Part shown: in pieces, positions 10,569 to 54,575 of the stretch | Layout: the number at the start of each line of letters is the position of its first letter | Position numbering within the stretch: position 1 is the stretch's first letter | Source of the DNA: Agriterribacter humi | GTDB lineage: Bacteria > Bacteroidota > Bacteroidia > Chitinophagales > Chitinophagaceae | Length of the DNA stretch: 64,000 bases | Direction of reading: 5' to 3' | Assembly (NCBI RefSeq): GCF_009192765.1 | Contig: NZ_VOHQ01000002.1 | Span: 372,001 to 436,000 of the forward strand | Position numbers and translations under genes: made by a program | Notes under the pieces: model-generated | Database searches by the model: none | What the model was told of the DNA's origin: nothing | Seen by the model: the letters and a program-made list of their open reading frames with translations, nothing else

Positions 10569-10611
10569 TAGCGGAATAACGGCGTTTTTTAAACCTTTAA
10601 AATGAATTCAA

Positions 10612-11067
10612 ATGCGATGCTATACATCTTGCATCCTGTTGTTTGCGGCGTTATCTTTTTACAGTTGCCGTGAAACGGGCCCTGCTGCAACAGATCGGGA
10701 CAAACAAACTGAAGCAACAAAAAAAGAACCGCTTCGGATAGGAATGGTTACTGGTCTTAAACCAGAGAAGATAGCTTATTATAAAGAACTCCATGCCAAT
10801 ACATGGGAGGGCGTACTAAAAAAGATTAAGGAATGTAATATCCGTAACTATTCAATCTATTTAAAAAAAATAGAGGATAAATACTATTTGTTCAGCTATT
10901 ATGAATACATAGGAGACAATTATGAACTGGACATGAAAAAAATTGCGTCAGATACTGTAACACAACGTTGGTGGAGAGAAACTGACCCCTGTCAGCAGCC
11001 ATTGCCGGATGCTGCTGCGGCAGGAGAAATATGGGCACCGATGGATGAAGTATTTCATGCACAATAA
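10612..11067 (+). CDS. Lipoprotein L-rhamnose mutarotase-family protein
   Basis: 151 residues. The N-terminus has a lipoprotein signal with a lipobox ending at C19 (SFYSC), followed by a polar linker to ~40. The remaining ~110 residues match the RhaM/DUF718 dimeric alpha/beta barrel. Recognisable parts are YYKELHANTW with the catalytic-type His (H61) and Tyr (Y57), NYSIYL, QRWW (W120, W121) and the C-terminal EVFH. RhaM interconverts alpha and beta anomers of L-rhamnose in the cytoplasm, but this copy is predicted to be membrane-anchored outside it. It may deliver the anomer preferred by the symporter encoded 43 bp upstream. The sugar may be fucose or rhamnose. Confidence 0.85.
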   Translation: MRCYTSCILLFAALSFYSCRETGPAATDRDKQTEATKKEPLRIGMVTGLKPEKIAYYKELHANTWEGVLKKIKECNIRNYSIYLKKIEDKYYLFSYYEYIGDNYELDMKKIASDTVTQRWWRETDPCQQPLPDAAAAGEIWAPMDEVFHAQ

Positions 11068-11096
11068 GGTTTAATCACACAATTGAACCATTCCAC

Positions 11097-13106: not shown

Positions 13107-13118
13107 ATATTGTTGAGT

Positions 13119-14495
13119 ATGCATGAACAGGAAAAACTTTTTCAGGAGGAAAGCAGGGTAAAAGCAACGGATCTGGAACACAGGCGGAAAATTAACTATA
13201 GCCTGATGCAATCGGATCTTGCTTTTCAGAAGGGAAAAAATGCATTCCCGGATCTTGAATCAGCGCGCAAAAGAGCCAAAAATATAAAATGGGAGACAAT
13301 TGAGCACTTAAATAAATACCTGCTGGAATTTGAAAAAAAATTTACAGAAAGGGGAGGCAAAGTAATATGGGCAGAAAACCCGCAGCAAGTGCTGGACGCG
13401 GTTTTGCAAATATGCAAACAGAAACAGGCTAAAAGTGTTGTCAAGAGTAAGTCCATGGTTACAGAAGAAATTCATTTGAATCCTTTTTTATCGCGGCATG
13501 GTATTGAAGTAGTGGAAACCGATCTTGGTGAGTATATACAGCAATTGTCCGGAGAGGCACCCTATCATATGGTAGCGCCTTCGATGCATAAAAGCAGGGA
13601 GGAAGTGGCCAGGTTATTTCATGATAAATTAAATGCACCACCCGGTTTGGCTCCTGAGGAGCTTACATTATTTACCAGGCAAATACTCCGGCAAAAGTAC
13701 GTGGATGCAGATATAGGAATTACCGGGGTAAATTTTTTACTGGCTGATATCGGCGCTGTGGCTGTAACAGAAAATGAAGGGAATGCAAGATTATGTACCA
13801 GTTTTCCTAAAACGCATATTGCCATTACCGGTATTGAAAAGATATTGCCATCTGTAAATGACCTTGCCTTGTTCTGGCCTTTATTGGCAACGCATGGTTC
13901 AGGACAGCAGGTAACCGTTTACAATACCATTTTTTCCGGTGCAAGGAAAGAAAATGAAACAGATGGTCCCGAAGATATGTATGTGATATTGCTGGATAAC
14001 GGAAGGACCAATATACTTGCCGATGTTACAGCAAGGGAAAGCCTGTTTTGTATCCGGTGCGGTGCTTGTTTAAATGTGTGCCCGGTATTCAAAAATATTG
14101 GTGGACATACGTATAATGCTACCTATGGCGGGCCCATTGGTTCGGTTATAACCCCTTATCTGAGTGGGCTGAAATCCTATAAACACCTCAGTTATGCTTC
14201 ATCGCTTTGCGGGGTTTGTACCCAGGTGTGCCCGGTTCATATTAACCTTCATGAGCTTTTGTTGTATAACCGCAATAAGTCGGTAAAAGCCCATTGCGGT
14301 TCCCGTAGTGAAAAAATAGGATGGTTGCTATGGAAGAAGGCCTGCCTGAACCGTGCAATGATGAACATGACAAATGGAAGGATTAAAAATTTTATGATTA
14401 AACTCCTTTTTCGGAAAAGCTGGGGTGATAACAGGAGCCTTCCGGACTTTGCCCCAAAAACTTTTAATGAGCTGTGGAAAGCAACCGGGCAATAA
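13119..14495 (+). CDS. lutB: LutB-like iron-sulfur L-lactate oxidation subunit
   Basis: About 459 residues when started at the ATG at 13119; in-frame TTG codons at 13110 and 13113 would add three residues but are less likely. It belongs to the LutB/YkgF family. The large N-terminal LUD domain contains GITGVNFLLADIGAVAVTEN. It is followed by two ferredoxin-type clusters, CIRCGACLNVCP and CGVCTQVCP, in which seven of the eight Cys lie in classical CxxCxxC spacing. With LutA (and normally LutC) it oxidises L-lactate to pyruvate in the cytoplasm. No lutC is present in the window. Its position after fucosidase-type genes suggests that it disposes of lactate arising from 6-deoxyhexose breakdown. 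Confidence 0.9.
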   Translation: MHEQEKLFQEESRVKATDLEHRRKINYSLMQSDLAFQKGKNAFPDLESARKRAKNIKWETIEHLNKYLLEFEKKFTERGGKVIWAENPQQVLDAVLQICKQKQAKSVVKSKSMVTEEIHLNPFLSRHGIEVVETDLGEYIQQLSGEAPYHMVAPSMHKSREEVARLFHDKLNAPPGLAPEELTLFTRQILRQKYVDADIGITGVNFLLADIGAVAVTENEGNARLCTSFPKTHIAITGIEKILPSVNDLALFWPLLATHGSGQQVTVYNTIFSGARKENETDGPEDMYVILLDNGRTNILADVTARESLFCIRCGACLNVCPVFKNIGGHTYNATYGGPIGSVITPYLSGLKSYKHLSYASSLCGVCTQVCPVHINLHELLLYNRNKSVKAHCGSRSEKIGWLLWKKACLNRAMMNMTNGRIKNFMIKLLFRKSWGDNRSLPDFAPKTFNELWKATGQ

Positions 14496-14559
14496 TTATT
14501 TCAAAAGTTACAGGGGATGATGATTTGTTTACATCCACCCTTTACTAATACTATTGTGT

Positions 14560-15276
14560 ATGCATGTTAATCTTTTTATTCCCTGCTTTGTAGATCAGTT
14601 GTATCCACAAACTGCTTTTAATATGATAAAAGTATTGAAAAAGGCAGGCTGTACGGTGCATTACAATACGGAACAAACCTGCTGCGGGCAACCTGCATAC
14701 AATGCCGGATACTGGGATGAATGCAGGAGCGTTGCAGAGAAATTTGTGCATGACTTTGAGGGAAATCAGTACATAGTCGCGCCAAGCGGATCCTGCATTG
14801 GATTTGTAAGAAATTATTATGGTAAGATACTCGAAAATGACGGGCATGAAAAAGAAATGCGTCATCAGCAATTGCCTGTATATGAATTCACGGAATTTTT
14901 GATTACTGTTTTGAATGTAGAAGATATTGGAGCTGCATTTAAAGCTTCGGCTGTATATCATGATGCCTGTGGCGCCCTGAGGGAGTGTGGCATAAAGGAG
15001 GCTCCAAGGAAACTGCTCCGCCATGTGAAAGGACTGCAATTGATTGAGGCGCCGGATTGTGAAGTGTGTTGTGGCTTTGGTGGCACTTTTGCGGTAAAGT
15101 TTGAACCCATCTCTATTGGAATGGGAGAACAAAAAGTATTAAACGCAATTGAAATGGGCGCTGAATATATTATTTCTACAGATTTATCCTGCCTCCTGCA
15201 TTTGGATGGGTACATCCGAAAACATAAACTGGCTTTGAAAACAATTCATATAGCGGATGTGTTGTCAGCCACTTAG
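14560..15276 (+). CDS. lutA: LutA-like CCG-domain L-lactate oxidation subunit
   Basis: 238 residues from the ATG at 14560; a TTG two codons earlier is also in frame. The protein has two CCG-type cysteine-rich domains: CCGQPAYNAGYW and SGSCIGFVR in the first half, HDACGALRECG and CCGFGGTFAVKF in the second, then STDLSCLLHLDG. This is the full LutA/YkgE pattern, probably binding a non-cubane [4Fe-4S] cluster as in heterodisulfide-reductase HdrB. It works with the LutB encoded 64 bp upstream. The order lutB-lutA differs from the usual lutA-lutB-lutC. It is the last gene of the + strand block, and no terminator is evident after it. Confidence 0.9.
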   Translation: MHVNLFIPCFVDQLYPQTAFNMIKVLKKAGCTVHYNTEQTCCGQPAYNAGYWDECRSVAEKFVHDFEGNQYIVAPSGSCIGFVRNYYGKILENDGHEKEMRHQQLPVYEFTEFLITVLNVEDIGAAFKASAVYHDACGALRECGIKEAPRKLLRHVKGLQLIEAPDCEVCCGFGGTFAVKFEPISIGMGEQKVLNAIEMGAEYIISTDLSCLLHLDGYIRKHKLALKTIHIADVLSAT

Positions 15277-24163: not shown

Positions 24164-24203
24164 TACACTTTTCCTCAATGCCTCCTGTACCTAAATAATG
24201 ATA

Positions 24204-26687: not shown

Positions 26688-26738
26688 GAACGTTTCGCTC
26701 TGCGATGATTGATACGTATAATCTATTAAAACACAATT

Positions 26739-27884
26739 ATGCATTTACCGTTAAAGGGCATTGTTGTATTGGAATTCAGTCAATATTTATCCGGACCCTG
26801 CGCAGGACTTCGCCTGGCGGACCTTGGAGCGCATGTAATTAAAATTGAACGTCCGCAAAAGGGAGAAGCTGGTAGAAAACTGGCGATCAAAAATTTATGG
26901 GCCGATGAAAGTTCACTGTTGTTTCATACCATTAACCGCAATAAAGAAAGTTTTACAGCCGATCTCGGTGATCCGCAGGATATGCAATGGATAAAACGGC
27001 TGATCGGCCAGGCAGATGTGATCACGCATAATTTCAGGCCCGGCGTTATGGAAAAAAAAGGATTGCATTACGAATCGGTAAAGGAAATAAATCCGGGTAT
27101 TGTTTACACAGAAATTTCCGGTTATGGAAACCACGGCCCATGGAAAAATAAACCAGGGCAGGATCTGCTCATTCAATCATTGTCCGGCCTTACGCATTCC
27201 ACCGGAAATTATCATGATAACCCGCTTCCATTCGGACTGGGGATTGGTGATTATTTGTGCGGTAACCAGGCCGTTCAGTTTATACTAGGTGCGCTCATTC
27301 GCAAAAAGAAAACAGGACAGGGGGCGTTGCTGCAGTTGAGCCTCATGGAAACGTTGATTGATTTTCAGTTTGAATTTTTTACTACCTATTTTCAGAGTAA
27401 GCGTCAGCACAAACGTTCTGCCATCAGTAATGGTCATTCATTGCTGAGTGCGCCTTATGGTATTTATAAAACACAGGACGGCTACATTGCAATAGCCATG
27501 ATGCCGCTTCAAAAACTAAATGCCGCAATTGATTGTGAAGCATTGACTCAGTTTGAAGAAGAGGACACCTTTAAGAAAAGAGATGAGATAAAAGCCGTCA
27601 TCAGCACTCATCTGCTTACAGGTACAACAACATCCTGGCTAAAAAAAACGCAACCGCTTGACTTGTGGGTGATGCCCGTTTTAAACTGGCAGGAATTAAA
27701 AGAAAAGCAGGGATATAAGATATTGGAGATGGAACAGCAGATACATTTAGACGATATAGAAATCACAACTACCCGCTGTCCCGTTCGTATAAATGGCCAG
27801 ATATTTCTTTCTGGTAAACCGGCGCCGCAGGTTGGACAGCATACAGAACACATCAAAGCCGCATTGTCGTTAAAATATGAGTAA
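26739..27884 (+). CDS. Class III (CaiB/BaiF) CoA-transferase, subunit or isozyme 1
   Basis: 381 residues, at the usual family length. Recognisable elements are LEFSQYLSGPCAGLRLADLGAHVIKIE at the N-terminus, NFRPGVMEK..L.YE, and GIGDYLCG, which places the catalytic Asp at D171. These enzymes form interlocked dimers in the cytoplasm and move CoA between carboxylic acids through aspartyl-CoA thioester intermediates. The stop overlaps the start of the next gene by 8 bp (ATGAGTAA), so translation is coupled to a same-length paralogue. CoA-transferases are unusual in polysaccharide utilisation loci. The acid substrate is unknown; an activated sugar acid, lactate or a glycan acyl substituent are possibilities. 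Confidence 0.9.
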   Translation: MHLPLKGIVVLEFSQYLSGPCAGLRLADLGAHVIKIERPQKGEAGRKLAIKNLWADESSLLFHTINRNKESFTADLGDPQDMQWIKRLIGQADVITHNFRPGVMEKKGLHYESVKEINPGIVYTEISGYGNHGPWKNKPGQDLLIQSLSGLTHSTGNYHDNPLPFGLGIGDYLCGNQAVQFILGALIRKKKTGQGALLQLSLMETLIDFQFEFFTTYFQSKRQHKRSAISNGHSLLSAPYGIYKTQDGYIAIAMMPLQKLNAAIDCEALTQFEEEDTFKKRDEIKAVISTHLLTGTTTSWLKKTQPLDLWVMPVLNWQELKEKQGYKILEMEQQIHLDDIEITTTRCPVRINGQIFLSGKPAPQVGQHTEHIKAALSLKYE

Positions 27885-29022
27885 ACTCTTAGAAGATATA
27901 CTGGTATTGGATTTCAGCCAATTTTTATCCGGACCTTATGCAAGCTTACGCCTCTCCGATATGGGAGCGAGGGTAATTAAAATAGAACGACCTGTTATTG
28001 GAGATATCTGCCGCACCTTATATGTGTCGGATGTAAAGATAGATGGAGCTGAGTCTACGATATTTCATGCTATCAATCGCAATAAAGAAAGCTTTGTCGC
28101 GGATATCAAAGATGAAGATGAATTGGAAAAAATAAAGAAATTGATTAAGAAAGCAGATATTCTTATTCACAATTTTCGTCCCGGTGTTATGCAAAGAGTG
28201 GGATTGGGATACGAAGCAGTTAAGGAAATAAACCCGACCCTTATCTATGCAGAGATCAGCGGATATGGCGAAAAAGGAGAATGGAAAGGATTCCCCGGGC
28301 AGGATCTTTTATTGCAGTCGGTTTCGGGCATTGCCTATTTAAGCGGTAACGAGGCCGACCAGCCCACACCTATGGGCGTGGCTGCCGGCGATATACTGGC
28401 AGGCACACACCTGGTTCAGGGCATCCTTGCCGCGTTGTTTAGCCGCTTTAATTCAGGGGAAGGATCATTGGTGCAGGTAAGCATGCTGGAAAGTTTATTG
28501 GATTTTCAGTTTGAAGTGCTGACCTGCTTCCTGAATGATGGTTATGCATTGCCCGAACGCAGCGCCGTTAATAACGGTCACGCATACATTGCAGCACCCT
28601 ATGGAATATATCAAACAGCAGATGGATATATTGCATTGGCAATGGGTTCTATTACTTTGTTGGGCCAGCTTTTGCAATGTGATTTGCTATACAAATACAA
28701 TGAGCCCACTGAATGGTTTGATAAAAGAGATGAAATAAAATTGATATTGAAAGAGCATTTGCTTACAAAGAAAACAAAAGAATGGTTGCATATTCTTGAG
28801 CCTGCAGATATATGGTGTTCGGATGTTTTTGATTATGATACGTTATTAAAAAGCGATGGCTACAACGTGCTGGATATGGAACAAATGGTGTATTCAGGAA
28901 ACAAAAATATAAAAACTACGAGGTGCCCTGTTCGTGTGGATGGAGAAGCTTTAAAATCGGACAAGGGAGCGCCTGCACTGGGACAGGATACATTGATGAT
29001 CGGGAAAGAATTTGGTTTATGA
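27877..29022 (+). CDS. Class III (CaiB/BaiF) CoA-transferase, subunit or isozyme 2
   Basis: 381 residues, the same length as the upstream paralogue and clearly similar along its whole length (LDFSQFLSGPYASLRLSDMGARVIKIE, NFRPGVMQRVGLGYE, TTRCPVRVDGE near the end). The catalytic Asp is retained at D172 (AAGDILAG). The 8-bp overlap with the preceding gene suggests a heteromeric enzyme, a known arrangement for two-subunit class III transferases such as benzylsuccinate CoA-transferase. Two separate enzymes with different acids are also possible. Two MaoC-type genes follow in the same operon, so the CoA ester is probably hydrated or dehydrated next (inference). Confidence 0.9.
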   Translation: MSKLLEDILVLDFSQFLSGPYASLRLSDMGARVIKIERPVIGDICRTLYVSDVKIDGAESTIFHAINRNKESFVADIKDEDELEKIKKLIKKADILIHNFRPGVMQRVGLGYEAVKEINPTLIYAEISGYGEKGEWKGFPGQDLLLQSVSGIAYLSGNEADQPTPMGVAAGDILAGTHLVQGILAALFSRFNSGEGSLVQVSMLESLLDFQFEVLTCFLNDGYALPERSAVNNGHAYIAAPYGIYQTADGYIALAMGSITLLGQLLQCDLLYKYNEPTEWFDKRDEIKLILKEHLLTKKTKEWLHILEPADIWCSDVFDYDTLLKSDGYNVLDMEQMVYSGNKNIKTTRCPVRVDGEALKSDKGAPALGQDTLMIGKEFGL

Positions 29023-29070
29023 AAAGATAGCCTGGCTTAAATAAAAAAATAATTCATTTATAAATTGGGA

Positions 29071-31305
29071 ATGATGATAAGAAATATATGTTTAGTAGTT
29101 TTTTTAATGCATAGCGCATTTTGCGTTTCAGCACAACAGGTAAACGATTTTAATCTCCGGTTTTCTGAACGGGGAGAAGATTCCTGGAGCTCCATGCCCC
29201 TGGGAAATGGTGAAATATCTTCACAGGTATGGACTGATAAAGAAGGGAAGATACAGTTTTACCTGGGTACCACAGATAGCAGGGATGCAATGGATAACCT
29301 GATAAAGGTTGGAAAATTAACCATTCAGTTCGAGCCTGATATTATAGTAAACGGAAAGAACTACGCTGAAGAGTTGCTATTGAATGAAGGTGTTTTCCGT
29401 ATTAAAAACAGTTTGGCCGACATACAGTTCCGTGTGGATGCCAACCGCCCGGAAATAGTAGTTTCAGGTTCATCAGCAGTTCCTGTTAAGATAAAAGTGA
29501 CGAACAATATATGGCGCACCGAAACACGCGACTGGAATAAAGATGAATACCTGGCCGAATACGGCGACAATGAAATGCCCTTCAAACCTTTTATGGAAGC
29601 AGACGATGCCTTAAAAAGTTCCGGCGGGGGTATTATCTGGTTTCACAGAAATAAAAATGAAGTATTCTGGAACGAATTAATGAAAGCGAATGGTCTTTTA
29701 GATGAAGGAATAGTCAATCCGTTAAAAAACAGGACTTTTGGCGCACTTGTGAAAGGAGCTGGATTACAAGCTTTAAACGATACTGTTTTATATACTGCAA
29801 AACCACTGAAAAAATTTATTATCAAAACAACTGTACTGGTACAACAAACAGACACCAGGGAAGCATATATTAATACGCTTCAAAATCTTGCTGCAGACCT
29901 TGACAAGACCGGAGAGACTGTTGCGCTGGCTGCTCATAAAAAATGGTGGTCCGGTTTCTGGAACAGGAGTTATATTTATTTTAATGCGGCAGATAAAAAG
30001 CTGAACGACACACTTTTCCTTTTAAACAGGGGATATGTATTGCAGCGTTATGTAAATGCTATAGGAGGAAGAGGCAGCCTGCCCATAAAGTTCAATGGAT
30101 CTACATTGGTGCTGGATACCTATAACCAGGCGATTGGCAGGGTATCGGGGAAGTCTGCGGACGCGAGATTATGGGGCGGCGCTTTCTGGTGGCAGAATAC
30201 AAGGTTAATGTATTATCCTATGCTGGCCTCCGGCGACTTTGACCAGATACAACCGTTCATTAATTTTTATTTGAACCTGTTGCCGGTCGCTAAAAAAATG
30301 ACTAAAAAATTCCATAAAAATGATGGCGCCCGTTTTTTGGAAACTACACATTTCTGGGGAGCATGGAGAGGCGGCGATATAGGATGGGACAGGACGAATT
30401 TGCAGCCGGGAATTTCAACCAATCCGTATATAAAAGACCTGATCATAACAGGACTTGAAATGTCGAACTATTTATTAGATTATTACAGGTACACAGGAGA
30501 TGAGAAAATGCTGCATGCGCAAACGATTCCTTTTATCAAAGAAGTATTATTGTTCTATGATCAGCATTATCATCGCGATGCATCTGGAAAACTCTTAATT
30601 ACTCCGGCGCAATCGCTCGAAACGTATATCAATGCTGTAAATCCTACACCGGATATTGCGGGACTTATTGTTGTAACCGCAAGAGTGATGGAACTTACAA
30701 AAGATGAGTCAACACTGTCATTATGCGGCAAGTTGCAAAAAGAACTTCCTGCCATACCAACCGCTGTGAAGGATGGTAAGAAAATCATCTTACCTGTACA
30801 ATCCTATAAAAACAAAATAAATGTTGAGTACCCTGAACTGTATCCGGTATTTCCATTCCGGATATATGGCGCCGGGAAAAAAGATACAGAAGTTGCCATC
30901 AATACCTTCAAAGAAAAACAAAGAGCTTATTCAGGGTGGCAGCAAACGGCTATCCAGGCTGCCATGCTTGGCTTAACAGATAGCGCCGCTAAAATTATGA
31001 AGATTAACGGACTGGCCTACGACAAGCGGTTTCGTTTTCCTGGATTCTGGGGACCCAATTATGATTATACGCCGGATCAATGCCATGCAGGAAATTATAT
31101 GAACACCATACAAACTATGCTGGTACAAGCTGAGAGCAACGATATATACCTGGTTCCTGCCTGGCCTGCGGAATGGAATGTTAAATTCAAACTTCATGTA
31201 CCGGGTGATAAGCAGGTGGAAGGAGAGTGGAAGAACGGGAAAATGGTAAGTGTAAAAAAACACCCCGAATCAAGTAACACGAATATAATTATTGGTTTTC
31301 GTTAA
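29071..31305 (+). CDS. Secreted DUF5703-like (alpha/alpha)6 glycosidase
   Basis: 745 residues from the ATG at 29071; an upstream in-frame TTG at 29065 is less likely. The signal peptide ends near VSAQQ. The N-terminal beta-sandwich holds SWSSMPLGNGEISSQVWTD and KLTIQFEP, matching the DUF5703 pattern seen in Bacteroidota glycan loci. The central barrel contains GGAFWWQNTRLMYYPML and ETTHFWGAWRGGDIGWDR. The C-terminal beta-domain ends with a typical MGWYDWDWEW-free strand set. Related to the proteins at 1545 and 24204 but a distinct subgroup. It is probably an exo-acting periplasmic glycosidase for a deoxyhexose or galactose residue. The substrate is unproven. Confidence 0.7.
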   Translation: MMIRNICLVVFLMHSAFCVSAQQVNDFNLRFSERGEDSWSSMPLGNGEISSQVWTDKEGKIQFYLGTTDSRDAMDNLIKVGKLTIQFEPDIIVNGKNYAEELLLNEGVFRIKNSLADIQFRVDANRPEIVVSGSSAVPVKIKVTNNIWRTETRDWNKDEYLAEYGDNEMPFKPFMEADDALKSSGGGIIWFHRNKNEVFWNELMKANGLLDEGIVNPLKNRTFGALVKGAGLQALNDTVLYTAKPLKKFIIKTTVLVQQTDTREAYINTLQNLAADLDKTGETVALAAHKKWWSGFWNRSYIYFNAADKKLNDTLFLLNRGYVLQRYVNAIGGRGSLPIKFNGSTLVLDTYNQAIGRVSGKSADARLWGGAFWWQNTRLMYYPMLASGDFDQIQPFINFYLNLLPVAKKMTKKFHKNDGARFLETTHFWGAWRGGDIGWDRTNLQPGISTNPYIKDLIITGLEMSNYLLDYYRYTGDEKMLHAQTIPFIKEVLLFYDQHYHRDASGKLLITPAQSLETYINAVNPTPDIAGLIVVTARVMELTKDESTLSLCGKLQKELPAIPTAVKDGKKIILPVQSYKNKINVEYPELYPVFPFRIYGAGKKDTEVAINTFKEKQRAYSGWQQTAIQAAMLGLTDSAAKIMKINGLAYDKRFRFPGFWGPNYDYTPDQCHAGNYMNTIQTMLVQAESNDIYLVPAWPAEWNVKFKLHVPGDKQVEGEWKNGKMVSVKKHPESSNTNIIIGFR

Positions 31306-31323
31306 TGAAATATTACTGTTTGT

Positions 31324-31830
31324 ATGAACCCGAATAAAGATGCGTCTAAACACAAAGACATCCCGGTATGGAACGCGGAAAACTGGTTTTACGAAGATAT
31401 AGTTGCCGGAAAAAGTATTCGTTCTATTCGGAGAACCATAAGCGAAGGGGAAAGCATGCAGTTTAATGCTTTGATGCTTGACATGCATCCTTATGTGGCA
31501 GATGAAATTTTTGCTAAGGAAGAGGGTATATTTGGCCGGCGGCTGGTGGCAGGTGCATTTGTATTTAGTGCCGGGCTGGGTTTGGTGGCTACCAATTGTG
31601 TAAATGCATTTAGTTATGGGTACGATAAGCTAAGGTTTATAAAACCTGTATTTATAGGCGATACGATCTATACCATCAAAACCGATCTGGATAAGCAGCC
31701 GAAATATAAAGATATGGGGTTGTACAGGGCCTGCTATGAAATATTTAAAAACGAAGGTGAGTTAGTATTGTATTGCGAGCATTTGCAAACGGTAAAATAT
31801 CGTAACCCGGAAGCCTTCTCCGAAAAATAG
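31324..31830 (+). CDS. MaoC-like hot-dog protein lacking the catalytic histidine
   Basis: 168 residues with a single hot-dog fold. It aligns over most of its length with the MaoC protein at 33635 (shared [18 protein letters not shown] versus [18 protein letters not shown]). In the hydratase motif the Asp is kept (D53 in [11 protein letters not shown]), but the catalytic His position is Val58, and the later 'AHG' segment is AAG-like (VAGAF, A76). Catalysis by the usual Asp/His pair is therefore unlikely. By analogy with heteromeric MaoC enzymes it may be the non-catalytic partner of the second protein. The gap to the following GH29 gene is 9 bp, so it is in the operon. Confidence 0.8.
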
Positions 31831-31839
31831 AACAACGGT

Positions 31840-33525
31840 ATGCACATTATTTATTTTTTTGTTCTTTTCATGGTATTGCAGGGATTATCGTGTGTTTCGC
31901 CCGGGGAGAAGGCTCAATTGGCCAAGCCTTCATCACAGCAATACAGTTGGCACGAGCAGGAACGGATTATGTTTATTCATTTTGGTATGGCTACCTGGCA
32001 GGGCAGGGAGTATGATAATTTTAGCACTGATCTTAAAAAAGTGAATCCTTCAAAAATAAATACGGATGAATGGTGCAGGATCGCGCAATCGTGGGGGGCC
32101 AAGCAAATTGTTTTTGTGGCCAAACATGTGGGTGGCTTTTGCTGGTGGCCAACAGCAACCACGGATTATAATGTAAAAAATATAGCATGGAAAGGTGGCA
32201 ACGGCGACCTTGTAGCTGAAATAGCCGCATCCTGCAAAAAATTTGGATTAAATCTTGGGTTATACCTGTATCCCGGCGATGATAAATGGGGCGCGGGGTT
32301 AGGAAGCGGCGGACGTACGAAAGACACAACAAAGCAGGAGGCTTACAATAAAATTTACCGGCAGCAACTAACGGAACTGCTTACCCGCTATGGTGAAATT
32401 AAAGAGGTATGGTTTGACGGCACCTGTGTTATAGATGTGGAAGATATCCTGGCCGAAAATGCCAGGGAAGCAGTTATTTTTCAAAGCCCCCAGGCAACCA
32501 TTCGCTGGGTGGGTAACGAAGCTGGCTTTGCTCCCTATCCCGCATGGAATTCCTTATACAGTACAGATTTGAAATCCGGAGTGGCAACGGCGGTACAGGG
32601 TACACCTGATGGAGATGCCTGGGCGCCGTTAGAATGCGATGTGCCGCTATACAATCATAACTGGTTCTGGTCGAAGGCAAATGAAAATAAGCGTCGCAAT
32701 GTAGATGACCTGATGGAGATATATTATAAGTCTGCCGGAAGAGGCGCATTGCTACTGTTAAATGCAACGCCAGATACAGCCGGAGTGATACCGGAGGGAG
32801 ATGTAAAACAATACGCGGCCTTCGGCAAAGAAATAGCGCGCAGGTTTGGGCAGCCCTTAAAAATGGTGAGCGACAAACAAGGAAAGGAAGTAACGATAGG
32901 CTTTGACGAGCCTACGGTAATCAATCATGTGGTCATCATGGAAGATTACAGGGAAGGCGAACGTATAAGGGCTTATGATGTGGAAGGATATGCCGGGGAT
33001 GAATGGAAAAGGCTATCCTCGGGATCATCTGTTGGAAGAAAAAAGATAGATTATTTTGAGGACATAGCTGTTACGAAAGTGAGGCTTACTATTACGCAGT
33101 CTGTAGCAGAACCCTTGATCCGTTCTTTCTCTTTGTATAAAATTGATAATACGCCTGAGTTGAAGTATAAAGAGGAAGCTGTTTCAAAAGACTGGCAATA
33201 TCTTAATTCATGGATGCCGGAAATGTTTAGCAATGGAAAAGCAAGCATTAACCTCAATCTTACCTCATATATTCCCGTACCCGGACAATACGAGGTTTTA
33301 TTTAAGGAAACAGGAGGGAAGAGAGTGACTGTGATAGATAAAGCTGAGCTATTTTACGATGGAGAAAAAACGCTCCCCGAATTTATAACCATAAAAGACA
33401 ATAACATTTTTATTAACCGGACAGCTCAGGTTACCAACGAAACAAGCATTTTGCTGAAAGTAACATTCAGCGCAACAGGTGAAAATGATAGTAAAGGAAG
33501 TATAAGTTTCAGGGCTGTCCACTAA
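31840..33525 (+). CDS. GH29 alpha-L-fucosidase-like lipoprotein
   Basis: 561 residues. The lipoprotein signal has its lipobox ending at C18 (QGLSC). The GH29 barrel spans ~35-335: FIHFGMATW (45-53), AKHVGGFCWW (94-103), GLNLGLYLYPGDD, and VWFDGTC with the likely nucleophile D193. The second His of the common AKHHxGF motif is Val97 here, as in some distant GH29 members, so substrate preference may differ. Two beta domains follow: ~335-440, similar to the C-terminus of the fusion at 6498, and ~445-561. It should release alpha-linked L-fucose or a related sugar in the periplasm. The gene lies between the two MaoC genes. Confidence 0.85.
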   Translation: MHIIYFFVLFMVLQGLSCVSPGEKAQLAKPSSQQYSWHEQERIMFIHFGMATWQGREYDNFSTDLKKVNPSKINTDEWCRIAQSWGAKQIVFVAKHVGGFCWWPTATTDYNVKNIAWKGGNGDLVAEIAASCKKFGLNLGLYLYPGDDKWGAGLGSGGRTKDTTKQEAYNKIYRQQLTELLTRYGEIKEVWFDGTCVIDVEDILAENAREAVIFQSPQATIRWVGNEAGFAPYPAWNSLYSTDLKSGVATAVQGTPDGDAWAPLECDVPLYNHNWFWSKANENKRRNVDDLMEIYYKSAGRGALLLLNATPDTAGVIPEGDVKQYAAFGKEIARRFGQPLKMVSDKQGKEVTIGFDEPTVINHVVIMEDYREGERIRAYDVEGYAGDEWKRLSSGSSVGRKKIDYFEDIAVTKVRLTITQSVAEPLIRSFSLYKIDNTPELKYKEEAVSKDWQYLNSWMPEMFSNGKASINLNLTSYIPVPGQYEVLFKETGGKRVTVIDKAELFYDGEKTLPEFITIKDNNIFINRTAQVTNETSILLKVTFSATGENDSKGSISFRAVH

Positions 33526-33634
33526 CATCATTTTACGGAGCATGGATGCTGTGCCCTGGAACCTGGTATATAAGGAGTCCGTTTTGGCAATACGAGGTAT
33601 TTTGCTTCAAACCATATAAACATAATTGAAGGGC

Positions 33635-34072
33635 ATGTTCACCAAAATATATTTTGAAGACTATACAGAAGAAATGGTACGAGAAACCATCGGCCGTACC
33701 ATTACGGAAACGGATATTGTATTACACGCCGGGCAAACCGGCGACTTTTTTCCTCACCACATGGATGCGGAGTGGTGCAAAACACAGCCATTCAAACAAC
33801 GTATAGCCCATGGTACGCTCATATTCAGTATAGCGGTTGGAATGACGGCTTCGCAAATCAATGAAGTGGCGTTTACCTACGGGTACGAAAGACTCCGGTT
33901 TATAAAGCCTGTGCATATTGGCGATACCATAAAAGTAAAAGTTACTGTGAAAGGGAAAAAAGAATATAAAAATCCCGCTCAGGGTTTAATTACGGAACTG
34001 GTGGAAGTATATAATCAGCGCAATGAAATGGTAATGGTTTGCGAACATATATTGCTCGCTCAAAAAAAATAA
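33635..34072 (+). CDS. MaoC-family enoyl-CoA hydratase/dehydratase
   Basis: 145 residues from the ATG at 33635; an in-frame TTG at 33626 would add three. It is a hot-dog domain with the hydratase-2-type motif [13 protein letters not shown], giving the catalytic pair D37 and H42, and the following RIAHGTL (H59). It should add or remove water across a CoA-activated double bond in the cytoplasm. The preceding MaoC-like protein (31324) lacks the His, so the two may assemble as a heteromer. The 109-bp leader is the longest gap in this part of the operon. The solute-binding homologue starts 3 bp after its stop. Confidence 0.9.
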
Positions 34073-34075
34073 CTG

Positions 34076-35254
34076 ATGCCTGAAAAGATTGAACTAAAAG
34101 GAATAACATGGGGGCATAGCAGGGGATATACGCCATTGGTTGCCGCCTCGCAGAGGTTTAATGAGCTTTATCCGGAAATTGATATTACCTGGAAAAAACG
34201 AACGCTCCAGGAGTTCGCCGATTTCCCTATAGAAAAACTGGTAGAATCGTATGATCTGCTGATCATAGATCATCCCTGGGTTGGATGTGCTGCTGCAACA
34301 CAATGTGTGCTTCCGTTAGACCAATACCTATCCGGAACTTATTTACAGGATCAATTGAAATATTCAACAGGCTATTCGCATCAAAGTTATCAGTACGGAG
34401 GACATCAGTGGGCTTTGGCCATTGATGCTGCAACACCTGTTGCCAGTTACAGGAAAGATTTGTTGTTACGGCACGGCACACCAGTGCCTGATACCTGGGA
34501 GGAAGTAATTGCAATGGCAGATATGGGAAGGGTAGCGGTGCCGGCTATTCCTATTGATCTGCTGATGAATTTTTATATGTTATGCATTGCTTTTGGGCAT
34601 GAACCTTTTTTAAATGAAGAAGAAGTAACAGATAAGCAAACAGGGCTAAAAGTATTGGATGCCATGCGATCACTATGGAGCCGGGTAAACCCCGAAATGT
34701 TTGATTGTAATCCTATAGCGGTGGCGGAACGGATGTCTTCAACGGATGATTACTGGTATTGTCCTTTTGCGTATGGGTATTCCAATTATTCAAGAAAAGG
34801 GTATGCAAAATATCTCCTTCATTATACAGATATCGTTAGATTTGAAACTGCAGGTAGTCGTTTACGTAGTACTTTGGGGGGGACGGGTTTGTCTGTGTCG
34901 GCATTTTGTAAGCATAAAGCCCAGGCATTGCAGTTTGCAGAATGGATCGTATCGGAAAATATTCAGACAACATTATATGTGGAACACGGCGGGCAGCCGG
35001 GATACGGTAAAGCTTGGGAAGATGAAAATGTAAACCGTAATACCAATAATTATTTTATGGAAACTTTACCCGCATTGGAACGGGCTTATGTAAGACCCCG
35101 GTATAACGGTTATTTGCACTTTCAGGACAATGCAGGTATCCCTCTGTGGGATTATCTGAAACATGGCGGAAACGCCGGACAGGTGCTGGATAAAATAAAC
35201 CGCATGTACAGGCAAGCAAAGCCCGTAACTCCACAGGAGCAGGCAGGGGGTTGA
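34076..35254 (+). CDS. Family 1 solute-binding-protein homologue without export signal
   Basis: 392 residues with the fold of ABC-type sugar-binding proteins: LVAASQRFNELYPEIDITW near the N-terminus, YDLLIIDHPW, PVPDTWEEVIAMAD, and a C-terminal helical lobe (HKAQALQFAEWIVSENIQTT). There is no signal peptide or lipobox, and an in-frame TAA lies two codons before the ATG, so no longer start is possible. The protein is therefore predicted to be cytoplasmic. No ABC permease or ATPase is encoded in the window. It begins 3 bp after a MaoC gene, so translation is probably coupled. It could be a sugar or CoA-metabolite sensor or carrier. Its role is unknown. Confidence 0.75.
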   Translation: MPEKIELKGITWGHSRGYTPLVAASQRFNELYPEIDITWKKRTLQEFADFPIEKLVESYDLLIIDHPWVGCAAATQCVLPLDQYLSGTYLQDQLKYSTGYSHQSYQYGGHQWALAIDAATPVASYRKDLLLRHGTPVPDTWEEVIAMADMGRVAVPAIPIDLLMNFYMLCIAFGHEPFLNEEEVTDKQTGLKVLDAMRSLWSRVNPEMFDCNPIAVAERMSSTDDYWYCPFAYGYSNYSRKGYAKYLLHYTDIVRFETAGSRLRSTLGGTGLSVSAFCKHKAQALQFAEWIVSENIQTTLYVEHGGQPGYGKAWEDENVNRNTNNYFMETLPALERAYVRPRYNGYLHFQDNAGIPLWDYLKHGGNAGQVLDKINRMYRQAKPVTPQEQAGG

Positions 35255-35320
35255 GTGCTTTATGGTAATTATAAATGATGCGGTAAACTGCTCACGGGCT
35301 AAACAGTAAATACATAAACA

Positions 35321-36166
35321 ATGATTATTGACACGCATATCCATATCTGGGATCTGAAAAGAGCAGCATACGATTGGTTGAAAGAGGATACCAGTATATT
35401 AAACCGCACTTATCAACTGGAGGAACTACTGCCTTCTTTTTCGCCCGCGAAGGTTACGCAGGGCGTGTTGGTGCAGGCAGCTAATAATATGGAGGATACC
35501 GGATTTATGCTGGAAACGGCGCGAAACCATGATCAGGTTGCAGGCGTGGTGGGCTGGCTGCCTTTGATGGATCCTGTTAAAACATTCGGTATACTGAATG
35601 AAAAGCTTTTGAAAGAAAAACATTTTAAAGGGGTAAGGCATTTAATTCATAATGAGCCGGATCCTGCATGGTTGTTGCAGCCTGAAGTGCTGGAAAGCCT
35701 GCAGATACTGGCAATACATAATATACCTTATGATGTGGTAGGCATAAACGATGATCATCTCCAAACCGCTATAAAGGTTTCAGAGAAAATACCTGATCTT
35801 AAAATCGTGCTTGATCATTTGAATCAACCACCCATTGCGGAAAAGAAAAGATTTGGAAGATGGGGGGATTTGATGAAGGCTATTGCTGGTAACAGTAACG
35901 TATATGCTAAGATTTCCGGACTGGGGACTGCATCCGGGAACCTTACTGGCTGGACAGCGGATGATGTTAGGCCATATATGGCATATACGCTGGAACTATT
36001 TGGCGCTAAGCGTTGTTTTTGCGGAGGCGACTGGCCGGTTAGCCTGCTTGCGGGCTCATATGAAAATCACTGGACGATTTACCGGAACATCCTGTCGGGC
36101 CTTTTACAGGAAGCTGATGCAGACCTGGTTTTACATAAAAACGCAAAACAGTTTTATAATCTCTGA
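35321..36166 (+). CDS. COG3618 amidohydrolase, putative L-fucono/L-rhamnono-lactonase
   Basis: 281 residues, a metal-dependent (beta/alpha)8 barrel of the amidohydrolase-2 type. Metal and catalytic motifs are DTHIHIWD (H6, H8), VRHLIHNE, VLDHLNQPP with a His near 170, and the C-terminal CGGDWPV with the catalytic Asp. Members of this group hydrolyse L-fucono-1,5-lactone, L-rhamnono-1,4-lactone or related lactones (LigI/COG3618). It precedes a RhaT-type permease, which supports a role in the non-phosphorylating breakdown of 6-deoxyhexoses in the cytoplasm. The exact lactone cannot be read from the sequence. Confidence 0.85.
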   Translation: MIIDTHIHIWDLKRAAYDWLKEDTSILNRTYQLEELLPSFSPAKVTQGVLVQAANNMEDTGFMLETARNHDQVAGVVGWLPLMDPVKTFGILNEKLLKEKHFKGVRHLIHNEPDPAWLLQPEVLESLQILAIHNIPYDVVGINDDHLQTAIKVSEKIPDLKIVLDHLNQPPIAEKKRFGRWGDLMKAIAGNSNVYAKISGLGTASGNLTGWTADDVRPYMAYTLELFGAKRCFCGGDWPVSLLAGSYENHWTIYRNILSGLLQEADADLVLHKNAKQFYNL

Positions 36167-36214
36167 TCATCGCGATACACGCATACTTCATCATAATCCA
36201 ATTCCCGTAATTAC

Positions 36215-37267
36215 ATGAATTTACTTTTTGGCATTCTTTTGCATGGCATAGGCGCTTTTTCCGCATCGGTTTGTTATACACCGCAAAAAAAAACCGTATC
36301 GTGGTCCTGGCAAACCTACTGGCTGATGCAGGCTGCGGTTTGCTGGCTGCTGTTACCCGTTATAGTGGCATGGATCACTATTCCTCATTTGGTTCAGGTA
36401 TTAGCAGAAGCTCCCGGTAATGCGATGTGGAGGTCATTTATATTAGGAGCGCTGTATGGTATCGGAGGAACTGCTTTTGGCCTGGCTATCCGCTACGTTG
36501 GATTTTCGCTTACCTATGCTATCTCCGTTGGTATTTCCTGTGTGCTCGGAACATTACTGCCACCCCTTTACCGTGGAGAATTGGGCGCTATATTAAGTGA
36601 CACAGGTGGCGGATGGATATTGAGTGGTATTACTATAGGTGCAGCGGGCATTGCATTATGCGGATTGGCAGGACATTCAAAAGAAAAAGATATTGCAAAG
36701 CGCAGCAATTCCCAAACTGTTTTTTCTTTATCAATAGGGTTACCGCTTTGCATTTTGGCCGGCGTGCTTTCAGCAGTATACGGATTTTCTTTAGACCAGG
36801 GACAGCCCATTGCTGATGTGGCAGCCCAATACGGGGCAGGCCATTTCCAGGGAAATGTAATTTATATATTTTCCAATACCGGAGCTTTTCTCAGTACCAT
36901 GATATATTGTCTTTACCTTCATCTGAAACAAAAAACATTCAAAGAATACATTTCACTGCCTCCTGGTCCAAAAACAGGAAAAAGAGTATTATCCTTAAAC
37001 TACATCTTAGCTGTTATAACAGGTGTATTATGGTATACGCAATTTTTCTTTTACGGGTTAGGGCATATGCGCATGGGCGCCTATAAATTTACGAGTTGGG
37101 CCATCCACATGATCATGCTTGTATTGATAAGCGCCTTAATTGGAATATTGCTAAAGGAATGGATGAACAGCAGTAAATCAACGCGGTTTTATTTGATTGC
37201 TGCGATTTTCACACTTATCGTGTCTGTATTGATTTTAACGTACGGAAATTATCTTGGACAATCTTAA
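36215..37267 (+). CDS. rhaT: RhaT-type L-rhamnose/proton symporter
   Basis: 350 residues with ten predicted membrane helices, the topology of the RhaT family (drug/metabolite transporter superfamily). Segments like LLHGIGAFSASVCYTPQKK, WSWQTYWLMQAAVCWLLLPV and FILGALYGIGGTAFGLAIRYVGFSLTYAI match E. coli RhaT regions closely in character. It should bring L-rhamnose, or a close relative, into the cytoplasm with H+. It follows the lactonase gene by 48 bp and precedes a Gfo/Idh/MocA dehydrogenase by 15 bp. Together they form import, oxidation and lactone-opening steps. The symbol rests on family membership. Confidence 0.85.
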   Translation: MNLLFGILLHGIGAFSASVCYTPQKKTVSWSWQTYWLMQAAVCWLLLPVIVAWITIPHLVQVLAEAPGNAMWRSFILGALYGIGGTAFGLAIRYVGFSLTYAISVGISCVLGTLLPPLYRGELGAILSDTGGGWILSGITIGAAGIALCGLAGHSKEKDIAKRSNSQTVFSLSIGLPLCILAGVLSAVYGFSLDQGQPIADVAAQYGAGHFQGNVIYIFSNTGAFLSTMIYCLYLHLKQKTFKEYISLPPGPKTGKRVLSLNYILAVITGVLWYTQFFFYGLGHMRMGAYKFTSWAIHMIMLVLISALIGILLKEWMNSSKSTRFYLIAAIFTLIVSVLILTYGNYLGQS

Positions 37268-37282
37268 ATCATCATCACTGCG

Positions 37283-38341
37283 ATGAATACATTCAGCGAT
37301 ATAGCCTATCATATTCCCGAACTTCCGGTAACATCGCCCATCGTTATCATCGGGGCTGGTGGTATTGTGCGAACGGCACATCTTCCTGCGTACCGGCTGG
37401 CAAAATTTGCAGTGGCTGGCATTTTTGATCCTGATCATGAAAAAGCAGTACAAGTTGCACATGACTTTCAAATACCGGTGGTTTACAACAGCATGGATGA
37501 GCTTGTTTCAAAAAAAGGAACCGGAGTTATATATGATGTGGCAGTGCCGGGTAGTGCCATGATTAGTGTACTCGGGCAATTGCCGGACAATGCTTTTGTA
37601 TTATTGCAGAAGCCGATGGGAGAGAACGAACAGCAGGCTCAGCGCATACTTGAGCTATGTGCGCAAAAGAAAATAATGGCAGGTGTAAATTTCCAACTCC
37701 GGTATGCACCCTATATAATTATGGCTAAAAAGATGATCGCCGGGGGATGGCTTGGTGATATTTGTGATGTGGAAGTTTACGTAAATGTGTATACGCCATG
37801 GCAATTGTGGGATTTTCTTTTTGACGCCCCGAGGGTCGAAATTTTATACCACAGCATTCACTACATTGATCTCGTCAGGAACCTTCTTGGTAATCCTTCG
37901 GGCGTATATGCCAAAACAACAGGGCATCCCAAAATGAATGCATTGCATTCTGTTCGTTCCAATATCATCATGGATTATGGGGATATGATAAGGACGAATA
38001 TTCTAACCAATCATACACACGGGTTTGGATTACAAAAACAGGACGCCTATATTAAAATTGAGGGAACAAAGGGGGCGATTAAAATAAAGCTGGGTTTACT
38101 GATGAATTATCCTGAAGGCGTTCCGGATCAGTTTGAATATGTTTTATCAGACGAAAGCCATTTTCCTCAATGGGAGGCTTTGCCTGTCAATGGCTCGTGG
38201 TTCCCCCATGCGTTTATAGGTTCCATGGCGGAGATCATGAAAGCAAAAGCGGATCACACCTATACGCCCGACAATTCAGTAGAAGATTGTATATTCACCA
38301 TGCGTTGTGTGGAAGCGGCGTATACTTCTGGCAAGCTCTGA
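37283..38341 (+). CDS. Cytoplasmic Gfo/Idh/MocA-family oxidoreductase
   Basis: 352 residues without a signal. The N-terminal Rossmann fold begins at IVIIGAGGIVRTAHLPAY (about 20-37), and the dinucleotide-binding IFDPDHEKA follows. The usual EKP is QKP here (LLQKPMG), retaining the Lys. The C-terminal half is the alpha/beta substrate domain ending in FTMRCVEAAYTSG. It likely oxidises a sugar or sugar derivative with NAD(P)+, for example an L-fucose or L-rhamnose dehydrogenase feeding the lactonase at 35321. A degraded copy of its last ~65 codons is at 42067-42270. The substrate is inferred from operon context. Confidence 0.85.
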   Translation: MNTFSDIAYHIPELPVTSPIVIIGAGGIVRTAHLPAYRLAKFAVAGIFDPDHEKAVQVAHDFQIPVVYNSMDELVSKKGTGVIYDVAVPGSAMISVLGQLPDNAFVLLQKPMGENEQQAQRILELCAQKKIMAGVNFQLRYAPYIIMAKKMIAGGWLGDICDVEVYVNVYTPWQLWDFLFDAPRVEILYHSIHYIDLVRNLLGNPSGVYAKTTGHPKMNALHSVRSNIIMDYGDMIRTNILTNHTHGFGLQKQDAYIKIEGTKGAIKIKLGLLMNYPEGVPDQFEYVLSDESHFPQWEALPVNGSWFPHAFIGSMAEIMKAKADHTYTPDNSVEDCIFTMRCVEAAYTSGKL

Positions 38342-54555: not shown

Positions 54556-54575
54556 AATAAATGCAATTTATACAT

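Follow-up and report, generated by a model that had tools for sequence, protein, structure and literature searches.

A conserved gene cassette tied to sugar metabolism was recognised in a 64,000-nucleotide stretch of the Agriterribacter humi genome (the window). Its core consists of two class III CoA-transferase genes (CoAT1 and CoAT2), the canonical MaoC gene (MaoC2, at 33626), a homologue of solute-binding proteins (SBP) that is apparently cytoplasmic, a fuconolactonase-like lactonase and a Gfo/Idh dehydrogenase, usually with a RhaT symporter, and it spans positions 26739-38341 (Table 1). We tentatively propose that it serves the oxidative catabolism of a 6-deoxy-L-hexose, with CoA-transferase and hydratase acting as a CoA-recycling sugar-acid dehydratase, a reading that we regard as a real possibility short of a probability.

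The first-pass annotation had listed seven genes on one strand, from CoAT1 to SBP; all seven were found on the forward strand at the positions in Table 1, and profile scores upheld the family calls. CoAT1 and CoAT2 overlap by 8 bp and, hence, the spacing of 3-109 bp that it gave was not valid at every join. Beyond SBP the same-strand run continued up to 38341 with the lactonase, RhaT and Gfo/Idh genes, omitted from that annotation, and these were far commoner beside the core than GH29 or DUF5703.

Table 1. Features of the cassette and of its surroundings in the window
Feature	Position	Strand	Profile evidence
CoAT1, class III CoA-transferase, 381 aa	26739..27884	+	PF02515, 298 bits
CoAT2, class III CoA-transferase, 381 aa	27877..29022	+	PF02515, 308 bits
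DUF5703 protein, optional cargo	29065..31305	+	PF18961 (DUF5703_N), 183 bits
MaoC1, MaoC family, optional in Bacteroidota loci	31324..31830	+	PF01575, 50 bits
GH29-like protein, optional cargo	31840..33525	+	PF01120 (Alpha_L_fucos), 104 bits
MaoC2, hydratase-type MaoC	33626..34072 (ATG start possible at 33635)	+	PF01575, 93 bits
SBP homologue, 392 aa, without signal peptide	34076..35254	+	PF01547 (SBP_bac_1), 40 bits
Amidohydrolase-family sugar lactonase, fuconolactonase-like	35321..36166	+	PF04909, 121 bits
RhaT-type sugar/proton symporter	36215..37267	+	PF06379, 178 bits
Gfo/Idh/MocA dehydrogenase, presumed sugar 1-dehydrogenase	37283..38341	+	PF01408, 48 bits
RhaM-family sugar mutarotase, neighbouring operon	10612..11067	+	PF05336, 97 bits
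LutB-like L-lactate oxidation subunit	13110..14495	+	LUD domain, 140 bits, and Fe-S domains
LutA-like protein, likely L-lactate oxidation subunit	14554..15276	+	CCG domain, 107 bits

Conservation of the cassette and its neighbours

Presence was counted in 43 loci of Bacteroidota that had long flanks, 16 loci labelled Chloroflexota and 147 genomes of the family (25 with SBP and 122 without). SBP, MaoC2 and Gfo/Idh were present in all 43 long-flank loci, CoAT1 and the lactonase in 42 each and RhaT in 38. When sampling started from SBP, a CoA-transferase gene lay on the same strand at a distance of at most 100 bp at 22 of 25 places. Closely similar sets recurred in Chloroflexota (CoAT1 in 0/16 loci) and Alphaproteobacteria, including rhizobial megaplasmids, where the set lay inside L-fucose-type operons; partial sets were found in Acidobacteriota and a variant with a crotonase in Streptomyces (Actinomycetota). 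This recurrence in several phyla indicated that the grouping is more than chance. Either a MaoC or a crotonase could occupy the hydratase position in sets that kept CoAT and SBP, an indication that water is added or removed at the level of an acyl-CoA. No description of the cassette was found in open-licence papers. Sinorhizobium, Niastella and Chitinophaga are cultured carriers.

The glycosidases behaved differently. The first-pass annotation had described a PUL-specific route in which a glycan-borne acid is activated with CoA and GH29 and DUF5703 are members of the module. The gene order of the window and the DUF5703 gene lying between CoAT2 and a MaoC in near relatives (L003, L005, L007 and L010) agree with that view; however, DUF5703 was detected in only 9 of the 43 long-flank loci (at any position in the retrieved stretch) and GH29 in only four, and the similar sets of Chloroflexota and Alphaproteobacteria, the rhizobial cassettes among them, carry an ABC transporter instead. 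We therefore consider it scarcely credible as a whole, although it was supported in grouping the CoA-transferases, a MaoC and SBP into a conserved unit linked to sugar metabolism. As to genes moving independently, which had been named as an outcome that would speak against a module, the core stayed together but the glycosidases mostly did not. Family scores were also low for the GH29-like (104 bits) and GH95-like (106 bits) proteins, compared with 572 for the GH95 protein of a relative, and the nearby glycosidases look like interchangeable passengers. An alpha-galacturonidase relative (family named from one representative) was present in 30 of the 43 loci.

The reported lack of a CitE-like lyase, thiolase or acyl-CoA dehydrogenase was supported: none of them was seen to recur with the module when 21 of its 25 recurring neighbour clusters were examined. 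No recognised acyl-CoA enzyme occurred in these 21 clusters, three of which matched no family, and no CitE-like lyase was detected among window genes 24198-38341. At single loci, a thiolase and an AMP-binding protein were found nearby on the opposite strand in Labrenzia, and a beta-keto-acid cleavage protein in Jannaschia.

Protein families of the CoA step

The two CoA-transferases, 48.5% identical to each other, scored 298 and 308 bits with the Pfam model CoA_transf_3 (cut-off 23.3) and were the only genes of this family found in the 5.69-Mb genome. All 61 aligned sequences, that of the window among them, kept Asp171 of CoAT1, and all 82 kept Asp172 of CoAT2; this residue aligned with an Asp of 9br6 and occupies what we take to be the position of the catalytic Asp169 in formyl-CoA transferase. 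No characterised equivalog (oxalate, mesaconate, glutarate, carnitine) fitted these proteins, the best score being 199 bits against a cut-off of 750.

In MaoC2, whose best solved relative was 4ffu (195 bits), Asp40 and His45 were found in 59/59 aligned sequences; this dyad is presumably the catalytic motif of MaoC R-specific hydratases. MaoC1 lacked it, since Asp53 and Val58 were found in 17/17 sequences and, in the alignment to 4ffu and 1q6w, Val replaced the expected catalytic His. MaoC1 was present in 8 of the 43 long-flank Bacteroidota loci versus 15 of the 16 labelled Chloroflexota, and close relatives (E up to 1e-50) occurred in 2 of the 147 family genomes versus 25 for SBP, so that a need for both MaoC genes was not upheld.

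The predicted model of SBP (pLDDT 94.5) had the sugar-binding proteins 6dtq, 7ofy and 1eu8 as its nearest folds (Foldseek with 6dtq: E 4e-22, TM 0.82), and all of the 50 fold matches listed were binding proteins bar one toxin fragment. To look for a secretion signal, hydropathy was taken over 12-residue stretches in the first 70 residues of untrimmed ORFs and the peak was recorded. None of the 71 SBP sequences contained a stretch reaching 2.0 (median 0.85, highest 1.54), versus 2.2-3.3 in ten transporter SBPs of the same loci, and the homologue is presumably cytoplasmic, judging from these sequences. The polar residues His14, Asp65, His66, Asp117 and Arg340 were invariant in 71/71.

A putative deoxy-sugar route and its alternatives

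Compared with the oxidative 6-deoxyhexose pathway, the cassette contained both a putative dehydrogenase and a putative lactonase, assigned by family only. The lactonase (NF052480, 153 bits) and RhaT (NF010024, 315 bits) scored under the model cut-offs of 400 and 468, respectively. RhaM was found in 15 of the 16 loci labelled Chloroflexota and in 4 of the 43 long-flank Bacteroidota loci, and also with rhizobial cassettes. Profile searches detected no enolase-type aldonate dehydratase among window genes 24198-38341, and such a gene was present in only 1/43 long-flank loci; hence, the aldonate would be made there without the usual next enzyme. Enolase-type genes occurred in 4/16 loci labelled Chloroflexota, and in the rhizobial operons the cassette had in its vicinity an L-fuconate dehydratase as well as another enzyme of the enolase type, so dehydration by the cassette looks redundant in those loci.

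Candidates for later steps were encoded elsewhere in the genome: contig C34 carried a candidate FAH, L-fucose dehydrogenase, FucP, lactonase and RhaM, and contig C5 a FucD-like gene and an SDR. The FAH-type candidate scored 386 bits with NF053535 (cut-off 500) and was 58% identical to the rhizobial FAH. Among family genomes, FAH was present in 23/25 with SBP versus 61/122 without (Fisher p 9e-5, with genome size as a confounder). In another locus (L133), SDR, FAH and RhaM genes lay directly upstream of the module. The genome also has a separate L-fucose operon, which makes the sugar handled by the cassette uncertain. No rhamnose isomerase (RhaA) was found in it, which says little because RhaA is missing from 146 of the 147 family genomes. 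L-Rhamnonate-dehydratase-like genes, all under the model cut-off, occurred in six family genomes, and as five of these (including that of the window) carry SBP, such genes do not exclude the cassette.

In the route that we infer, RhaT would import the sugar, perhaps L-rhamnose as first choice, with L-fucose, L-galactose or a methylated relative also possible. A RhaM-type mutarotase would equilibrate it, and oxidation at C1 by Gfo/Idh would give a lactone, which the amidohydrolase would open to the aldonate. Since Gfo/Idh, lactonase and mutarotase are present, an acid made inside the cell from free sugar is more likely than one carried on a glycan. The CoAT1/CoAT2 pair would load CoA on the aldonate, and MaoC2 would remove the 3-hydroxyl as water; a CoA-transferase would then pass the CoA carried by the resulting 2-keto-3-deoxy acid on to another aldonate. 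If CoA is recycled in this way and not consumed, the absence of a thiolase, a lyase and an acyl-CoA dehydrogenase would be accounted for. The end of the route, left open previously, may thus lie with enzymes encoded on C34 and C5, where SDR and FAH would finish the dehydrated acid to pyruvate and L-lactate; the Lut-like genes for L-lactate oxidation in the window were counted in favour. SBP might be a sugar-binding protein recruited to assist in the CoA step, perhaps holding the sugar acid. One SBP relative (L142), however, was found without a CoA-transferase and with a rhamnonate-dehydratase-like gene, so SBP may have no part in that step. The 2-keto-acyl-CoA intermediate of this route is unusual.

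The same genes might instead invert a stereocentre of the sugar acid, the CoA-transferase pair and MaoC carrying out a CoA-dependent epimerisation before an ordinary dehydratase (FucD) acts. Racemases are known among the homologues of class III CoA-transferases, stereoisomers of carnitine are acted on by CaiB/CaiD, and the FucD and second enolase-type enzyme kept near rhizobial cassettes would be accounted for. This is rather unlikely, given the single enolase-type gene in 43 Bacteroidota loci, the location of the FucD-like gene on another contig and, on chemical reasoning, the tendency of a 2-hydroxy enoyl intermediate toward the ketone. Consumption of CoA, with the activated acid cleaved to small acyl-CoA esters and SBP as the missing cleaving enzyme, would draw on its many invariant polar residues, its apparent cytoplasmic location and its gene adjoining a CoA-transferase gene, and enzymes with an SBP fold exist (MqnA, cyclohexadienyl dehydratase). 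Nevertheless, thiolase, lyase and CoA-ligase were absent from the recurring neighbours examined, the fold matches listed were almost entirely binding proteins, and the SBP relative in L142 stands without a CoA-transferase; we judge such cleavage improbable.

A substituted sugar such as 2-O-methyl-L-fucose was also considered, the thioester letting the MaoC enzymes eliminate water and also hydrolyse the enol ether, which would persist after the action of an ordinary dehydratase. PaaZ (oxepin-CoA hydrolase part) was the best NCBIfam model for MaoC1 and MaoC2 (58 and 92 bits, far under the cut-off of 563), and the alpha-galacturonidase relative noted above presumably acts on RG-II, which we take to contain methylated sugars. 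Given that the 21 recurring neighbour clusters examined (out of 25) contained no gene for the handling of methyl groups or methanol, and that MaoC1 is missing from most Bacteroidota loci, this reading seems very improbable.

Significance and relation to known systems

To our knowledge, descriptions of sugar-acid breakdown generally do not involve CoA esters. The CoA-recycling dehydratase might belong to a general route, present in at least five phyla, in which sugar acids are processed as CoA thioesters. An SBP relocated to the cytoplasm would be partner or catalyst for class III CoA-transferase, MaoC and crotonase would be interchangeable, and the whole would offer another option beside the enolase- or IlvD-type dehydratases of known non-phosphorylative sugar pathways; this wider claim is doubtful. 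Through its CoA chemistry and internalised binding protein, such a conserved cassette would bring a further type of step into carbohydrate metabolism. It would also explain "extracellular solute-binding protein" annotations on genes without a secretion signal, and give soil Bacteroidota a deoxy-sugar route, the sugars perhaps coming from pectin.

The fold of SBP is shared with the sugar-binding proteins of ABC transporters (MalE3, TMBP and SmoF; TM about 0.82), in which conserved positions align with two Asp and one Arg of the cassette protein. Unlike these, the cassette SBP has no signal peptide, its cluster in the window has no permease, and the Gly-Gly-Trp motif is Gly-Gly-Thr in 69 of 71 sequences. 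The itaconate/mesaconate-type pathway has a CoA-transferase and a MaoC hydratase in common with the cassette, but its CitE-like lyase is lacking from the cluster, and scores were far under the cut-offs (RipB/Ich 55 of 340; mesaconate CoA-transferase 178 of 700). Carnitine (CaiB/CaiD) and phenyllactate (FldABC) provide precedents for CoA recycling by a class III CoA-transferase and a dehydrating enzyme. By analogy, the cassette resembles these in having a class III CoA-transferase beside a hydratase without CoA ligase or thiolase, and differs in being set among sugar-acid genes and in having a pair of CoA-transferases, either MaoC or crotonase, and SBP.

The mutarotase, dehydrogenase and lactonase follow the same logic as the oxidative L-fucose/L-rhamnose pathway (dehydrogenase, lactonase, enolase-type dehydratase, SDR and FAH hydrolase), whose operon contains the cassette in rhizobia and adjoins it in L133, and candidates for the remaining enzymes are held by the window genome. 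The cassette departs from that pathway in having Gfo/Idh in place of the SDR-type fucose dehydrogenase and, where the enolase-type dehydratase is usually missing from the cluster, CoA-transferases, MaoC and SBP.

Composition and boundaries of the cassette

The genes listed by the first-pass annotation, namely two class III CoA-transferases (CoAT1 and CoAT2), two MaoC proteins, a solute-binding-protein homologue (SBP), a GH29 and a DUF5703 gene, were confirmed in the window. The window lies on contig C12 of a genome of 5.69 Mb, and the nearest matches in a scan with CoAT2 were mostly titled Chitinophagaceae. CoAT1 and CoAT2 were 48.5% identical and were the only two CoA-transferases found in this genome.

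Gene run of the window containing the CoA-transferase cassette
Feature	Position	Strand	Remark
susC- and susD-type genes		+	first in run, before the GH95-like gene; presumed from the earlier reader's call and the appearance of the translated products
GH95-like gene		+	between the susC/susD-type genes and CoAT1
CoAT1	26739-27884	+	
CoAT2	27877-29022	+	
DUF5703	29065-31305	+	
MaoC1	31324-31830	+	
GH29-like	31840-33525	+	
MaoC2	33626-34072	+	
SBP	34076-35254	+	
Lactonase	35321-36166	+	
RhaT	36215-37267	+	
Gfo/Idh	37283-38341	+	
PQQ-type dehydrogenase with cytochrome c domain	38412-40583	+	next in the run after Gfo/Idh

A scan of bacterial and archaeal genomes with CoAT2 yielded at least 521 relatives. 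At the 80 best-scoring loci, neighbours were counted by tblastn anywhere within stretches of up to 21 kb. Of these loci, 62 were treated as Bacteroidota, although the title of one reads just "uncultured bacterium"; 16 had titles naming Chloroflexi, Chloroflexota or Anaerolineae, and two were Acidobacteriota. Among the 43 Bacteroidota loci with long flanks (at least 19 kb), SBP, MaoC2 and Gfo/Idh were present in all 43, the lactonase and CoAT1 in 42 and RhaT in 38, followed by alpha-galacturonidase (30), DUF5703 (9), MaoC1 (8), the GH95-like gene (6), GH29 (4) and RhaM (4). The first-pass annotation had proposed a PUL-bound module, with GH29 and DUF5703 as members, acting on a sugar-derived or glycan-borne acid. 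On these counts the boundary taking in GH29 and DUF5703 was rejected; that genes with CoA chemistry form a module was upheld, so this interpretation is supported in part. The finding is a cassette for sugar oxidation that is conserved and includes CoA chemistry, and the PUL enzymes around it look interchangeable. No description of it was found among the open-licence papers searched, and passages of PMC11378808 and PMC9007349 did not mention it.

The lactonase and Gfo/Idh were found in all 16 Chloroflexota loci, MaoC1 and RhaM in 15, MaoC2 in 14 and SBP in 10; CoAT1 and RhaT were detected by tblastn in none of these stretches of up to 21 kb. Both Acidobacteriota loci contained SBP and a second SBP, with lactonase and Gfo/Idh absent by tblastn. 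In three loci (L063:11143-12366, L070:11149-12384 and L072:11176-12411), CoAT2 was directly followed by a second SBP homologue that shares 16-17% identity with the SBP of the window; an SBP of its own may thus go with each CoA-transferase.

Since these loci had been selected through CoAT2, a sampling starting from SBP was added. SBP was present in 25 of the 147 genomes of the family, at 26 places. At the 25 places outside the window, a same-strand CoA-transferase match lay within 100 bp in 22 and within 2 kb in one; it was absent from the stretches L142 and L143, the latter on a contig of only 4.9 kb. The two samples overlap (eleven contigs are apparently common), so their counts are not additive. 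The pairwise distances of the cassette proteins correlated across loci, with Spearman coefficients of 0.45-0.83 uncorrected for species relatedness. The distribution of the cassette is patchy: SBP was lacking from both of the further genomes in the family sample that belong to the genus of the window.

Two further observations concern the neighbourhood. Genes of an alpha-D-galacturonidase family (one representative scanned, NF049878, 1458 bits, cut-off 1300) neighboured the cassette at 37 loci, many of them Chitinophagaceae and L014:7766-10486 among them, and relatives occurred at 15 of the 25 SBP-first places. A gene related to the PQQ-type dehydrogenase occurred in one of those 25 stretches (L136).

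Occurrence in plasmid records

The search with SBP by tblastn gave matches in 235 plasmid records; of 45 rows sampled across these matches, 17 had weak identity of about 23% and probably represent ordinary binding proteins. Seventeen stretches from 16 plasmid records were examined, 16 fetched around an SBP match and one (L086) around a MaoC1 match. Pararhizobium and Labrenzia carried, almost in one piece, MaoC1, CoA-transferase, SBP, lactonase, IclR, a sugar ABC transporter, an enolase-family enzyme, RhaM, Gfo/Idh, MaoC2, SDR, FAH and L-fuconate dehydratase. The same set was present in Nitratireductor, without MaoC1 within the stretch, and in full in S. medicae, but dispersed over about 28 kb. 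Shinella contained CoA-transferase, SBP, IclR, transporter, enolase-family enzyme, RhaM, Gfo/Idh, MaoC2 and SDR, the stretch having neither lactonase nor MaoC1. The order SBP-CoAT1-CoAT2-SBP2-Gfo/Idh-MaoC2-RhaT was observed in Rufibacter (Bacteroidota), and a similar set in Persicobacter.

Sinorhizobium M103 and S. meliloti BL225C had a second cassette type, which combines CoA-transferase and SBP with crotonase, aldose epimerase and SDR. Streptomyces had much of this set, and Azospirillum had CoA-transferase, SBP and crotonase. RB-TnSeq fitness data are on record for S. meliloti. A same-strand CoA-transferase match lay within 100 bp of SBP in 15 of the 16 SBP-bearing plasmid stretches, the sixteenth being that of Jannaschia, with its CoA-transferase on the opposite strand.

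Features of the cassette proteins

The catalytic Asp was kept in all aligned CoAT1 (61/61) and CoAT2 (82/82) sequences, as were the Asp and His of MaoC2 (59/59), and MaoC1 had Val in place of His in 17/17. Compared with the rhizobial counterparts, identity was 63% for MaoC2, 56% for CoAT2, 42% for Gfo/Idh and 39% for SBP; MaoC1, at 74%, was the highest of those compared, yet lacks the catalytic His.

The predicted structure of SBP (pLDDT 94.5) had disaccharide- and sulfoquinovose-binding proteins as its nearest solved folds. Asp65, Asp117 and Arg340, invariant in 71/71 sequences, aligned with conserved residues of solved sugar-binding proteins that presumably contact the sugar there. Many database records label SBP as extracellular. 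None of the 71 SBP sequences (untrimmed ORFs) had a strongly hydrophobic N-terminal stretch, whereas all ten transporter SBPs of the same loci had one, and therefore SBP is most likely cytoplasmic.

Candidate sugar and proposed chemistry

The window genome has a separate L-fucose operon on another contig (C34), with FucP (338 bits, cut-off 280), L-fucose dehydrogenase (405, cut-off 300), a lactonase (253, below the cut-off of 400), a RhaM relative and a relative of 2,4-didehydro-3-deoxy-L-rhamnonate hydrolase (386, below the cut-off of 500). A FucD-like gene (40% identity) lies with an SDR-like gene on contig C5. The cassette therefore probably serves another sugar. L-rhamnose would fit, given RhaT, RhaM, the lack of RhaA and, in relatives, pectin-type enzymes in the neighbourhood of the cassette. 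No clear hint as to the sugar came from solved relatives of the rhizobial transporter SBP. A plain rhamnose isomerase pathway was rejected: RhaA was not found in the window genome, but it was missing in 146 of the 147 family genomes, which leaves no contrast. Fucose and rhamnose catabolism converge once their 2-keto-3-deoxy acids are oxidised at C4, so SDR and FAH could serve both routes. FAH was present in 23/25 family genomes with SBP versus 61/122 without it (p 9e-5, with genome size an uncontrolled confounder).

An upstream operon (568-15276) contains GH43-like, GH95/GH65-like, GH29-like, SSF symporter, RhaM and LutB/LutA-like genes; it possibly belongs to the same sugar supply line, and the LutB/LutA-like genes would fit L-lactate as product. 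A second sugar-acid-like cluster, with creatininase-family, RidA-domain, enolase-superfamily, SDR and RraA-like aldolase genes, lies at 53791-58118 on the minus strand.

An aldonate-making cluster that usually lacks an enolase-type dehydratase (present in just one of the 43 long-flank Bacteroidota loci), yet has CoA-transferase and hydratase, suggests a CoA-cycled dehydration: the aldonate would be loaded with CoA by a class III CoA-transferase and dehydrated by the hydratase, and the CoA recycled. Such a cycle would do without a ligase, a thiolase and a lyase. No enzyme of these kinds recurred among the 21 of 25 repeat neighbour clusters inspected, where no recognised acyl-CoA enzyme appeared and three clusters matched no family. 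That tally showed 25 of 127 families from 93 representatives, covered neighbours of 170-750 aa within 6 kb, and could hide acyl-CoA genes of single loci. Nearby genes of this sort did occur at single loci: in Labrenzia a thiolase and an AMP-binding protein, both encoded on the opposite strand, and in Jannaschia a beta-keto-acid cleavage protein. An itaconate-type pathway was discarded, with no lyase and low model scores.

Against CoA-cycled dehydration stand the enolase-type dehydratases of the rhizobial operons and of 4/16 Chloroflexota loci. Mutual exclusion between the cassette and L-rhamnonate dehydratase was not found, five of the six genomes with a rhamnonate-dehydratase-like gene also having SBP, which likewise counts against it. 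In L142, SBP occurs together with an L-rhamnonate-dehydratase-like gene (314 bits, below the cut-off of 393) and without CoA-transferase; this fits a swap of dehydratases, but it also indicates that SBP may act at another step. In L144, one same-strand run joins CoA-transferase, crotonase and SBP with KDG-kinase-like, KDPG-aldolase-like and UxuA-like genes, a gene content that places the three with 2-keto-3-deoxy acid metabolism, although the UxuA-like gene may itself encode a dehydratase. An M24-peptidase-family protein is encoded between the CoA-transferase and the crotonase of this run (L144:6669-7847).

The substrate, the CoA transfer, the dehydration and the role of SBP are inferences. 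CoA-cycled dehydration of the kind suggested here for an aldonate is known for carnitine and phenyllactate.
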